Positions 28,446-34,780 of a stretch of DNA of 43,321 bases are shown one piece after another; the first letter of the stretch is position 1, and the number at the start of each line of letters is the position of its first letter. Location of the stretch: NCBI GenBank assembly GCA_022565805.1, contig JAIULZ010000018.1:1-43321 (forward strand). The letters are read 5' to 3'. The stretch is from Balneolales bacterium (GTDB lineage Bacteria; Bacteroidota; Rhodothermia; Balneolales; Cyclonatronaceae). Made by a program: the position numbers and the translations under genes. The notes under the pieces were generated by a model. The model was not told the DNA's origin and did not search any database. It saw nothing but the letters and a program-made list of their open reading frames with translations.

Positions 28446-30260
28446 ATGAAAAAAAATAACTCAACCAAGATTTTCTTCATTATAGGTTTCCTGGTGCTTA
28501 CAGGATTCTATCTTCAGTTTAGTGTTCGGCACTGGCTGGAAGAGCGGCATATAAGCTCTCTTGACGAAGAAGCGCGCACCGAATATCTTTTCCAGAACGC
28601 AGATCGTCTCGCAAACCTGAGATCAAGAGCCCTTAACTTTGGTCTCGATCTTCAGGGTGGGATGTATGTTACGCTGGAGCTGGCCACACACCAGCTAATC
28701 TCAGAACTTGCCCGCGACCAGCGCGATGATGCTTTCGACGAGGCGCTCCAAACCACTTTCGAGCGATCCAGAACTGCAAATATAGACGTAGTAGCCGAGT
28801 TTATTAATGAGTTTGAAAGAAATAACGAAGGAGCTCGACTTAGCCGTTATTTCCACATGAACTCCGATGAATTAACCCGTGCATCAACAAACGATGAAGT
28901 ACGCGATTTCCTGAACCAGCAGCGTAGTGCAGCTGTAGATCGTGCTGTCGAAATTATTCGTAATCGTATTGACCGCTTTGGTGTAACCGAGCCGTCTATT
29001 GTTAAGCAGGGTACCAGCCGTATAGTTGTAGAGCTTCCCGGTGTAGACGACGATCAGGATCGTGTGCGAAGCCTTCTGCGTGGTACCGCTCGCCTGGAGT
29101 TTAGAACAATGGCAAACTCCAACGAGATCCGCAATACTTTTGAAAGAATTGTAGCCGCTCTAAATGAAACAGAAACCATCGAAGGCGAAGATGGCGAAAC
29201 TGAGCAAATAGTAACCAACCCGCTTTTGGATGTTCTTATTGATCTCGGCGGGCCGGATATTCGTATGGGTTATGCCAGCCCCAGAGATACTGCTACAGTA
29301 AACGATCTTCTACGCAGAGAATCTATTCAGCGCCTCATACCTGGCAACATGGAGCTTATGTGGGGAGCGCGGCAGGAAACAGAAGGCGGACTTTTGCCAC
29401 TTTTGGGTGTTCGTGCCACGGCAGAATTAACCGGTGAAGTTATTACGGATGCGCGTCCGGCTTTCGACCCGCAAACAAACGCACCGGAAGTTTCAATGAC
29501 CATGAACCGTGATGGTGCCCGCACCTGGAGCATGCTTACAGGCGCCAATATTGGTCGTCCGGTAGCTATTATTCTTGATGGAATGGTATACAGCTATCCA
29601 ACCGTACGGACCCAAATTTCCGACGGTCGTTCATCAATTAGTGGCTTAGGCGGATTGGCAGAAGCGGAAGATCTTGTAAATATACTATTGTCTGGTGCTC
29701 TGCCTGCACCACTCGATATTATTGAAGAACGTACAGTAGGTGCTACTCTTGGTGAAGCCTCTATACGCGCCGGGTTTAATTCAGCCTTGTTTGGCTTAAT
29801 AGTAGTATGTCTATTTATGATTTTCTACTACCGTACAGGTGGCGGAATCGCAAACCTTGCGCTGGTTCTCAACATTGTGTTTATACTTGGTATTCTAAGC
29901 GCGTTCCAAGCCACATTAACCCTGCCGGGTATTGCTGGTATCGTTCTTACCATCGGTATGGCGGTAGATGCAAACGTACTTATTTTCGACCGTATTCGTG
30001 AAGAGCTTCGCTCCGGTAAATCGATTATTGCTGCCATAGACAGCGGTTACAATAATGCCATGAGCGCAATTCTGGATGCTAACATCACCACATTCTTAAC
30101 GGCATTAATTCTATTCAGTTTTGGTATGGGCCCGATTAAAGGCTTTGCGGTAACGCTAATGGCAGGTATTGTTGCCTCGTTGTTCAGTGCTATCATCATC
30201 ACAAGGGTTATCGTTGACTGGCTCACAAGAGGCCGCAACCCAAGCATCAGCTTTGGATAA
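28446..30260 (+). CDS. secD: Protein translocase subunit SecD
   Basis: Proton-driven helper of the Sec translocon that pulls exported proteins through from the periplasmic side; it works with SecF. The protein has 604 aa: a first membrane segment (about 9-27), the family motif FGLDLQGGMYV at 65-75, a large periplasmic P1 domain, and five C-terminal membrane segments. The channel region carries GMAVDANVLIFDRIREE, with the conserved Asp and Arg of proton transfer, and ANITTFLTALILF. FGVTEPSIVKQGTSRIVVELPG is the conserved P1 stretch. The ATG at 28446 gives the usual start. secF follows after 55 nt. Confidence 0.96.
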   Translation: MKKNNSTKIFFIIGFLVLTGFYLQFSVRHWLEERHISSLDEEARTEYLFQNADRLANLRSRALNFGLDLQGGMYVTLELATHQLISELARDQRDDAFDEALQTTFERSRTANIDVVAEFINEFERNNEGARLSRYFHMNSDELTRASTNDEVRDFLNQQRSAAVDRAVEIIRNRIDRFGVTEPSIVKQGTSRIVVELPGVDDDQDRVRSLLRGTARLEFRTMANSNEIRNTFERIVAALNETETIEGEDGETEQIVTNPLLDVLIDLGGPDIRMGYASPRDTATVNDLLRRESIQRLIPGNMELMWGARQETEGGLLPLLGVRATAELTGEVITDARPAFDPQTNAPEVSMTMNRDGARTWSMLTGANIGRPVAIILDGMVYSYPTVRTQISDGRSSISGLGGLAEAEDLVNILLSGALPAPLDIIEERTVGATLGEASIRAGFNSALFGLIVVCLFMIFYYRTGGGIANLALVLNIVFILGILSAFQATLTLPGIAGIVLTIGMAVDANVLIFDRIREELRSGKSIIAAIDSGYNNAMSAILDANITTFLTALILFSFGMGPIKGFAVTLMAGIVASLFSAIIITRVIVDWLTRGRNPSISFG

Positions 30261-30315
30261 CTCATATTCCTTACCCAAACCCATTTACTTAAACTGATAT
30301 TTAGAAAATAGAATT

Positions 30316-31224
30316 ATGAGATTATTTGAAGATCCTAAGTTCAACTTTATCCACCAACGTAAAATCGGATATATCATTTCCGGTATACTCGTGGTAATTT
30401 CGATTGCGGCAATTCTCGTGAAAGGCCTGCAGTTTGGCATCGACTTTCGCGGTGGTACAGAAATAGTTGTGGCTTTCGAGGCCGCTTCACCTTCTGTAGA
30501 AGAAATTCGTGCAGAGCTTGCCGAACCTCTGCTTAGTATTCCTGAGGTAAAAACCTTTGGTGCAGATATTATTATTCGTACCGATTCTCCACTCGAAGGT
30601 GGCGCTCTCAACAGTGCCATTTTAGGTGGTTTGGCACAGGCATACCCCGATAATCCGGCGCAAATTATTCGAACGGAAATCGTAGGTCCGCGTTTTGCGG
30701 AAGATCTGCGAAATGCAGCGCTGCAGTCCGTAATTTTTGCTCTTGCGCTTATTTTCCTCTACATTCTTATTCGATTCAAGAAATGGTATTATTCGGCAGG
30801 AGCCGTAGCCGCACTGGCGCACGATGTAATCATTACCTTGGGTATGTTTACACTACTCTACGACCTCGTTCCGTTCGCTCTTGATATCGATCAGGCGATT
30901 ATTGCCGCCTTCCTCACCATTGTGGGATATTCTCTTAACGATACGGTAGTAGTTTTTGACCGTATTCGGGAAAATTCCCTTATATTCAAGACCGAAGCCT
31001 ACGATACAATGGTTAACAGAAGTATTAACAATACGCTTAGCCGTACCGTAGTAACTTCGGTAACAACTCTTATTGCGGTTGGCATTTTGTTTGTATTTGG
31101 CGGAGAAGTACTAAAAGGCTTATCTTTTGCCTTGATTTTGGGAGTAATTCTTGGTACATATAGCTCAATATTTGTAGCAAGTAGCCTTGTTGTCGATCTG
31201 CAGCTAAGAAAGACCAACAGTTAA
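30316..31224 (+). CDS. secF: Protein translocase subunit SecF
   Basis: Partner of SecD in the SecDF complex (302 aa). It shows one N-terminal membrane segment (about 17-35), the motif GIDFRGGTEI at 41-50, a short periplasmic domain with VGPRFAEDLRNAA, then five membrane segments containing VGYSLNDTVVVFDRIREN. The ATG at 30316 fits the family start. Separate secD and secF genes are the older arrangement; many Bacteroidota have a fused secDF. The pair is followed by a STAS gene 28 nt later, possibly on the same mRNA. Confidence 0.96.
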   Translation: MRLFEDPKFNFIHQRKIGYIISGILVVISIAAILVKGLQFGIDFRGGTEIVVAFEAASPSVEEIRAELAEPLLSIPEVKTFGADIIIRTDSPLEGGALNSAILGGLAQAYPDNPAQIIRTEIVGPRFAEDLRNAALQSVIFALALIFLYILIRFKKWYYSAGAVAALAHDVIITLGMFTLLYDLVPFALDIDQAIIAAFLTIVGYSLNDTVVVFDRIRENSLIFKTEAYDTMVNRSINNTLSRTVVTSVTTLIAVGILFVFGGEVLKGLSFALILGVILGTYSSIFVASSLVVDLQLRKTNS

Positions 31225-31252
31225 TTCTTAACTTTCCTGCGAGGAATAAAAC

Positions 31253-31603
31253 ATGAGTTTCAACACCACAGAGCGGTATAACTGCGTTATCATTGAGTTT
31301 AAAGGCAACGTAATGGGTGGCCCCGATGCCACCAAACTAAACGAAAGCCTGCATCAGCTCATAGATAAAGGCCAAAAAAATGTAGTCGTAGACCTGGCTA
31401 AAGTTTCTTTTATGAACTCTTCCGGTCTGGGAATGCTTATCGGTGGCCTTACAACTATGCGTAATGCCGGCGGTGATCTTCGTATTGCCAATGCCGCTAA
31501 CAAAATTGAAAGTCTTCTCATCGTTACAAAGCTTATTACCGTATTCAAGCACTTCAAGTCGCTCGACGCCGCGGTAGAATCTTTCCAAAACGATGCTGAA
31601 TAA
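31253..31603 (+). CDS. STAS-domain anti-sigma-factor antagonist
   Basis: A single-domain STAS protein (116 aa) of the SpoIIAA/RsbV type. The phosphorylation loop FMNSSGLGML places the switch serine at Ser57, matching the SpoIIAA serine. Such proteins bind an anti-sigma kinase when unphosphorylated and release the sigma factor. No kinase or sigma gene is adjacent, so the partner is unknown. GAGGAA 8 nt upstream of the ATG at 31253 is a clear Shine-Dalgarno. It follows secF by 28 nt and is closed by a strong terminator, so it may end the secDF transcript. Confidence 0.9.
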   Translation: MSFNTTERYNCVIIEFKGNVMGGPDATKLNESLHQLIDKGQKNVVVDLAKVSFMNSSGLGMLIGGLTTMRNAGGDLRIANAANKIESLLIVTKLITVFKHFKSLDAAVESFQNDAE

Positions 31604-31784: not shown

Positions 31785-33086
<1,302 letters not shown>

Positions 33087-33095
33087 TCTCTAATT

Positions 33096-34232
33096 ATGAC
33101 CCGATTTACGGTTTCATACAAGCTGGTAGCAGACCATGAAGATGAAGCTATGGCTTTGTCGGAAAAAGTGGCCGGCGAGCAAAGCGTTGAAGTTCCCGAC
33201 GACGTTTTGAGTCCGCGTATTTTTGAGATTTTCAGAGGTCATACACAAAAAGTTTCGCAAACTTCAGAAAGCAGCTGGGAATCCAAAATTTCCTACGACA
33301 GCCGACTTCTGGGAGACGATCTTTCTCAGTTTTTGAATGTTTTGCTTGGTAACGTGTCGCTTTACAATGGAGTAAAAGTAACGGGCTTAAGCTGGGATAA
33401 ACTCGAGCACTTACAGCTGAACGGCCCCGCCAACGGCATAAATGGTGTACGGGCTTTGTGCAGCGCGAAATCGCGGGAAAATAGGCGGCCGCTATTATGC
33501 TCAGCGCTCAAACCCATCGGGCTCAGCACCGCCGAGATTGCCGAAATTTGCTATCAGTTCGCGCTTGGAGGAATTGATCTCATCAAAGATGATCACGGCC
33601 TTGCCAATCAGGCATCTTCTCCCTTTGAAGAGCGCGTAGCGGCCTGCACGGCTGCGGTTCAAAAAGCCGCGGATGAAACCGGACATAAAGCCATTTATCT
33701 ACCGAATGTAACCGCCGATGGCGAACAGACCTTACGCAGATTTTCTATTGCCAAAAAAGCCGGAGCCGGCGGCGCGCTCGTAATTCCGCATCTATGCGGC
33801 CTGCACCAAATGAACAAACTTGCGGCTGATGCCGAAGGTTTTCCCATTATGGCACATCCGGCCTTTAGCGGCAGCTATGTACTTTCAAACTCCTTCGGCT
33901 TCACACCAGAATTTTTATACGGCGAGCTATGGAAGGCTTTTGGGGCAGATTTCAGCATTTACCCAAACTATGGCGGACGCTTTTCTTTTAGCATGGAGAG
34001 CTGCAAAAAGATAAATTCCGCGTGTCGGGAAGAGTTATCAGCCACGAAAAAAAACTGTTTTCCTGCACCCGGTGGTGGAATACAGCGCAACAGTATCCGT
34101 CAGTTTTCAGAATGGTATGGCAAGGACACTACTTTTTTGATTGGCGGCTCTCTCTACCAGCATCCCGGCGGAGTAAAAACAGCCTGCACCGAGCTGATTG
34201 ATGAGCTGGAAAGCATGTATAAAGAAACTTGA
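33096..34232 (+). CDS. RuBisCO-like protein (form IV), non-carboxylating
   Basis: Large-subunit RuBisCO homologue (378 aa), N-terminal domain about 1-125 and TIM barrel about 130-375. The RuBisCO Lys175 counterpart is Lys139 (ALKPIGLS), but the Lys177 position is absent. The metal-site motif reads IKDDHG: Lys164 (carbamylated lysine equivalent) and Asp166 are kept, while Glu204 is His167. Loop 6 carries PNYGGRFSF without the catalytic Lys334. Phosphate-binding glycines are kept (GGG 326-328, GG 350-351). It therefore cannot be a CO2-fixing RuBisCO; known form IV proteins are enolases or isomerases in methionine salvage or act on sugar-acid phosphates. The IKDDHGLANQ stretch reminds me of the DeepYkr subgroup, which includes the Rhodospirillum rubrum 5-methylthioribulose-1-phosphate isomerase (from memory). 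It lies 9 nt after purA and 89 nt before a cupin. Confidence 0.88.
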   Translation: MTRFTVSYKLVADHEDEAMALSEKVAGEQSVEVPDDVLSPRIFEIFRGHTQKVSQTSESSWESKISYDSRLLGDDLSQFLNVLLGNVSLYNGVKVTGLSWDKLEHLQLNGPANGINGVRALCSAKSRENRRPLLCSALKPIGLSTAEIAEICYQFALGGIDLIKDDHGLANQASSPFEERVAACTAAVQKAADETGHKAIYLPNVTADGEQTLRRFSIAKKAGAGGALVIPHLCGLHQMNKLAADAEGFPIMAHPAFSGSYVLSNSFGFTPEFLYGELWKAFGADFSIYPNYGGRFSFSMESCKKINSACREELSATKKNCFPAPGGGIQRNSIRQFSEWYGKDTTFLIGGSLYQHPGGVKTACTELIDELESMYKET

Positions 34233-34321: not shown

Positions 34322-34780
34322 GTGAAACCAAACTCAAAAGTTATACGGAAAGCCAAACAGGGCTGGGAAACAGTACAGCCGAAGGTATACAAAACCGCTG
34401 GCACGAGTTTTAAAGACATCACCCGTTTTTCGCTGCTGGGCGAGGGAGAAAACGAGCATGAGCTAAATATGCAAACCCGTGTATTCCGGGTGCTCGAAGG
34501 CGGCTATTCGTCTCTCGAATACCACAGGCATCCTCACTCTGTTATGATTATCGAAGGTAAAGGCAGCGTAATTCTGGGTGATGAGGTCCATGACCTGAAT
34601 ACTTTCGATGTAGTGTACATCAGTCCGGAAACCCTGCATCAATTTCATGCCGATAAAGGAGCGCCTCTCTCTTTTCTATGCGTGGTAGACCGCTATCGCG
34701 ACCGTCCGGCCGTACCCGACGAGAAAATGCTGGATGAGATTATGGGAGATTCCGAGGCGAGGAGAAAAGCAAGACTTTAA
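34322..34780 (+). CDS. Single-domain cupin next to the RuBisCO-like gene
   Basis: A small metal-binding beta-barrel protein (152 aa). Cupin motif 1 gives His68, His70 (plus His72) and Glu78 (YHRHPHSVMIIEGKG); motif 2 gives His106 (ISPETLHQFH). These four residues are the usual metal ligands. A Cys120 follows in SFLCVVDRYRDRP. It starts with GTG at 34322. In Rhodospirillum rubrum a cupin works after the RuBisCO-like isomerase, releasing methanethiol to give 1-deoxyxylulose 5-phosphate; adjacency suggests a similar step here. That enzyme is, as I recall, longer than this one, and single-domain cupins with this ending are widespread, so the function stays open. Confidence 0.82.
   Translation: MKPNSKVIRKAKQGWETVQPKVYKTAGTSFKDITRFSLLGEGENEHELNMQTRVFRVLEGGYSSLEYHRHPHSVMIIEGKGSVILGDEVHDLNTFDVVYISPETLHQFHADKGAPLSFLCVVDRYRDRPAVPDEKMLDEIMGDSEARRKARL

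Follow-up and report, generated by a model that had tools for sequence, protein, structure and literature searches.

The RuBisCO-like protein (RLP) and the cupin encoded next to each other in the genome of a Balneolales bacterium very probably carry out an MTA-isoprenoid shunt, in which the RLP would isomerise 5-methylthioribulose-1-P and the cupin would remove methanethiol, leaving 1-deoxyxylulose-5-P (DXP). The shunt recycles methylthioadenosine (MTA), a waste product, and yields methanethiol and a precursor for isoprenoids. It has been demonstrated in R. rubrum and R. palustris, where Rru_A1998/Rru_A2000 and RPA2169/RPA2170 have been experimentally assigned (PMC4958253, PMC5893883), Rru_A2000 being the R. 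rubrum 1-methylthioxylulose-5-P methylsulfurylase (PMC4958253). RLP and cupin are already recognised families, since a published survey used both as markers (PMC10663253). The suggestion in an earlier note on this DNA that such a branch may not have been tested seems true for the lineage but not for the pathway: in the searchable literature we found no description of the shunt in Balneolota and no enzyme assay for any member of this phylum. What emerges is a known pathway in a little-studied lineage.

The gene pair

The window (the whole stretch of 43,321 nucleotides that was analysed) makes up all of contig 18. The draft genome to which it belongs measures 4.47 Mb and is 99% complete, and no RuBisCO-superfamily protein besides the RLP was found in it. 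The relevant features are as follows.

28446 to 31603, forward strand: secD, secF (both named from their sequences) and a STAS-domain protein gene (by profile), upstream of purA
31797 to 33086, forward strand: purA, adenylosuccinate synthase; conserved upstream neighbour, dispensable for the predicted pathway
33096 to 34232, forward strand: RLP, form IV DeepYkr type, predicted 5-(methylthio)ribulose-1-phosphate 1,3-isomerase (profile matches, alignment, tree)
33510 to 33512, forward strand: K139 codon, at the RuBisCO K175 position (spinach K175); seen in the sequence, invariant in the alignment
33585 to 33596, forward strand: K164-D165-D166-H167 codons, KDDH metal-site motif (spinach K201-D202-D203-E204; sequence, alignment, tree)
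34322 to 34780, forward strand: cupin homologous to Rru_A2000, GTG start, predicted 1-(methylthio)xylulose-5-phosphate methylsulfurylase (profile, structure matches, alignment)
34523 to 34537, forward strand: cupin metal-ligand motif H68-x-H70-x-H72, invariant in 15 aligned cupins including 3jzv
34637 to 34639, forward strand: fourth His ligand of the cupin, H106, invariant in the same 15 cupins

The RLP reading frame has an ATG start and encodes 378 amino acids. It opens exactly 9 nt after the purA stop, which ends at 33086, and its own stop lies 89 nt before the cupin start at 34322, which confirms the earlier note's placement of an RLP between purA and a cupin. The protein scores 80.7 bits against Pfam RuBisCO_large (cut-off 30.1) and so carries the catalytic domain. 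The frame is kept in 74 of the 129 genomes of the order Balneolales, and nine residues (K139, K164, D165, D166, H167, H254, R295, G327 and G328) are invariant among 21 aligned proteins, 20 of them from this order and the other being 3qfw; it is therefore not a chance ORF. But is it a RuBisCO? In the alignment I141 sits at the K177 position, H167 replaces E204 and the loop-6 'VGK' with its lysine is missing, on which grounds a true RuBisCO of forms I-III was rejected. The same pattern had been read from the sequence in the earlier note (Lys139 and Lys164/Asp166 kept, His167 for Glu204, Lys177 and the loop-6 Lys missing), and each element of it holds in sequence and alignment.

Placement of the RLP

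Among solved structures the top match of the RLP is 3qfw (212 bits, 35% identity), which we take to be R. palustris RLP1, followed by MtnW at 132 bits; the motif LIKDDHGLADQ is the same in 3qfw and the window protein. Such matches to proteins of solved structure suffice to settle the fold. A tree of 71 proteins, built by a quick search without bootstrap and with some long outgroup branches, unites 60 DeepYkr-type proteins, the window RLP and 3qfw among them, in a single clade (SH-aLRT 97), separate from the MtnW, C. tepidum/RLP2 (Photo) and OiaX-like groups, all of which read KDDE. The window RLP joins other Balneolales within it (99), and these group with 3qfw and with Gemmatimonadota and Ectothiorhodospiraceae proteins (92), most of which are also cupin-adjacent. 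A Photo (C. tepidum-type) RLP was rejected, the window protein lying outside that clade. The tree also bears on a concern of the earlier note, that the protein might belong to a clade with a proven different reaction: the proven reaction of the DeepYkr clade is itself a step of MTA salvage.

The KDDH site that the earlier note singled out is present, but it is nothing special to this protein. All DeepYkr clade members carry it except one (L170), which reads KEDH; many of these loci were collected partly by an IKDDH pattern, and their agreement is to that extent not independent, whereas L166, L169, L170 and the RLP matches in the genomes of the order came from genome searches free of this bias. 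Judged by sequence, KDDH marks the DeepYkr clade and is no peculiarity of the window RLP. Of note, L166 (L166:6809-8002, genome G131) and its family f6 relatives are RLPs of the same class that lack a cupin in the roughly 6 kb flanking them to left and right.

The cupin partner and its distribution

The cupin has 152 amino acids and finds its best solved matches in 3ibm, 3kgz and 3jzv, with 37-41% identity. Of these, 3jzv is labelled Rru_A2000 (72 bits, E 4e-19; 47 of 127 positions identical, 37%), and 3kgz is presumably an R. palustris protein. C120, like the four histidines, is invariant in the 15 aligned cupins.

How faithfully do RLP and cupin travel together? Among the 129 genomes of the order, whose named members include Fodinibius species and sediment MAGs, 74 have the RLP, 70 a strong cupin match and 95 mtnA. 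RLP and cupin occur together in 69 genomes, the RLP alone in five, the cupin alone in one and neither in 54 (Fisher p 3e-29), and the exceptions mostly fall where a contig breaks off or a genome is incomplete. RLP and mtnA occur together in 72, with the RLP alone in two (genomes 86% and 73% complete), mtnA alone in 23 and neither in 32 (p 3e-13); both p-values overstate independence, as the genomes counted are related. Some 5 to 12 kb stand between RLP and cupin in four genomes (G024, G026 at L061:6564-17623, G030 and G092), so the pair is retained even without adjacency. Among cultured members, F. roseus (L080) carries the pair.

The order secD-secF-STAS-purA-RLP-cupin is retained in most of the Balneolales genomes examined, which bears out the purA-RLP-cupin order that the earlier note proposed to survey. 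The functional tie to purA and AMP synthesis that it drew from this closeness is not supported: the secDF-STAS-purA block is conserved as a whole, and DeepYkr RLPs outside Balneolales have other neighbours and lack the block. The association of purA with the RLP is one of conserved gene order only. In a genome of the same genus (G097 contig 34, L064:12313-14558), a CRISPR-like array begins some 1.4 kb downstream of the cupin gene; it holds more than 30 copies of GTCGCAATTCCACATAGGTACGATTGAGAG, and its spacers measure about 36 nt.

The rest of the pathway

The window genome encodes MtnA on contig 88 (449.6 bits, cut-off 279), Dxr (471 bits) and Dxs (814.6 bits). The MTA-salvage inference of the earlier note is upheld by the DeepYkr placement, the Rru_A2000-type cupin partner and this mtnA, whose presence also answers its worry that every MTA-consuming enzyme might be absent. 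No class II aldolase was found in the genome with a model that detects one in 12 of 14 control genomes; the known routes by MtnB and by Ald2 (DHAP shunt) therefore appear absent, which leaves the RLP as the only known consumer of 5-methylthioribulose-1-P found there.

Which enzyme would feed MtnA? The search for mtnP and mtnA that the earlier note suggested succeeded for mtnA but not for mtnP: no protein in any of the 129 genomes exceeds the MTAP family cut-off. The three PF01048 proteins of the window genome are two PNP-type phosphorylases and one AMP nucleosidase-like protein, with no MtnN among them. One of the phosphorylases, on contig 13 (L055:6945-7778), aligns Asp and Met with the Asn and His of PDB 8swu, at positions that we take to recognise the purine and the 5' group of the substrate; it is therefore a candidate MTA phosphorylase in place of the missing MtnP. 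The candidacy is weak, since NCBIfam labels the protein an inosine/guanosine PNP and PNP-type genes are also present in genomes without mtnA.

The cupin reaction raises a similar question about its thiol. Rru_A2000-type cupins studied so far use glutathione. No GshB-type glutathione synthase was detected in the window genome with the PF02955 profile, whose one match was rejected as such an enzyme because the protein is RimK; bacillithiol synthase BshC is present (339.7 bits). A review anticipated that different groups would use different thiols and, in the passage concerned, names Firmicutes and Actinobacteria, not Balneolales (PMC6302742).

From what was observed directly (gene content, clade, conserved residues, co-occurrence and gene order) we infer the following reactions. 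MTA would be phosphorolysed to 5-methylthioribose-1-P, possibly by the contig-13 phosphorylase, and MtnA would convert this to 5-methylthioribulose-1-P. The RLP would enolise the latter through the K164/D166/H167 metal site and the K139 region and, by analogy with characterised members of its clade, complete a 1,3-isomerisation to 1-methylthioxylulose-5-P. The metal-binding cupin, with a thiol co-substrate that may be bacillithiol rather than glutathione, would then take off the methylthio group. Its products would be DXP, which Dxr would feed to the MEP pathway, and a methylthio-thiol adduct that would in turn yield methanethiol. That Balneolales hold a biochemically distinct variant, with bacillithiol for glutathione in the cupin step and a PNP-type enzyme for MtnP, is a tentative idea which we rate as somewhat doubtful.

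The window resembles the R. rubrum system in having a DeepYkr RLP that adjoins a homologous cupin, and in possessing mtnA and the MEP pathway. It differs in lying behind purA in the secDF-STAS-purA block, in having no canonical MtnP found, and in a genome, from another order, with BshC and no detected glutathione synthase. From R. palustris come the closest solved RLP and the second-closest solved cupin, and RPA2169/RPA2170 show the same succession of RLP and cupin; the RLPs share only 35% identity, and R. palustris has Ald2 and RuBisCOs, which were not found in the window genome.

Alternative readings

Could the pair serve another purpose? The main substrate of the RLP might be 5-deoxyribulose-1-P, derived from the radical-SAM by-product 5'-deoxyadenosine, whose 1,3-isomerisation would yield DXP directly, with MtnA serving both routes. 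The mtnA and dxr genes of the same genome would suit this scheme, and in other bacteria the early MTA enzymes also handle 5'-deoxynucleosides (PMC10986504). Such a route could dispense with the cupin, but a cupin of the Rru_A2000 type is present in 69 of the 74 genomes that have the RLP, and we regard this substrate as very unlikely to be the main one. It is likewise quite improbable that the RLP works as a sugar-phosphate isomerase, with the cupin as its partner, in an unknown pathway that resembles the shunt in fold and clade only. The identities to solved cupins and to 3qfw do leave room for an altered substrate, and MtnP was identified in none of the 129 genomes; the invariant active-site residues, the tight link to mtnA (72 of the 74 RLP genomes) and the relatives in other phyla that adjoin mtnK and mtnA all argue for the MTA substrate instead.

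Two other form IV functions fare worse. MtnW of Bacillus, the 2,3-diketo-5-methylthiopentyl-1-P enolase, also belongs to the RuBisCO superfamily and to methionine salvage, and it ranks first among the NCBIfam matches of the window RLP with 186.5 bits. These scores are far under the cut-offs (186.5 against 409 and 152.4 against 513.6 bits), MtnW falls in a separate clade with KDDE in place of KDDH and another reaction, and with no class II aldolase found there is no MtnB to make its substrate; an MtnW-type role is thus extremely improbable. The sugar-phosphate alternative of the earlier note, the isoapionate pathway, fails on similar grounds. OiaX (3-oxo-isoapionate-4-P decarboxylase) is a form IV RLP that does have a counterpart elsewhere in the order, yet the window RLP reaches 82.8 bits against a cut-off of 700, branches off from the OiaX-like group and has other neighbours, with no DUF1537-like kinase among them. 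That it is OiaX, or a member of another form IV group, is scarcely credible. The counterpart is a second RLP in a Balneolales genome (G016 contig 11, L155:41-2700), OiaX-like with 501 bits and encoded beside a DUF1537-like four-carbon sugar-acid kinase, which suggests an isoapionate-type pathway in the order.

A transketolase in place of the cupin

DeepYkr RLPs in other phyla adjoin mtnK, mtnA or an MtnP-like gene. Among 80 named contigs with such an RLP, a cupin follows it in 39, a transketolase-like gene or split pair directly precedes it in 27, and neither is seen in 14; none has both, an exclusion that was scored on the RLP contigs and that is partly phylogenetic, with few changes on the tree. 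The split transketolase (about 310 + 335 amino acids, fused in L127) is exemplified by L117:1671-7107 from Clostridium ljungdahlii, L100, L139 and about 24 other loci, which come from spirochaetes, Chloroflexota, Acidobacteriota, Planctomycetota and others besides C. ljungdahlii, many of them anaerobes; some also have mtnK, mtnA or an MtnP-like gene. We found no description of this arrangement in the literature searched. In these loci the product of the RLP may pass to the transketolase rather than to a cupin, and one can speculate that the enzyme cleaves 1-methylthioxylulose-5-P to glyceraldehyde-3-P and a two-carbon unit bearing the methylthio group.

Implications

The RLP-cupin shunt would bring to Balneolales an oxygen-independent route of methionine salvage that has until now been elucidated in purple bacteria, and it predicts the release of methanethiol from MTA. 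A role as the sole source of DXP was rejected in view of dxs, so the shunt would serve salvage and detoxification. The difference between KDDH and KDDE offers a usable marker to separate MTRu-1P isomerases from other RuBisCO-like proteins. The split transketolase in place of the cupin hints that what the RLP makes may have another fate as well, and is more novel than the shunt itself.
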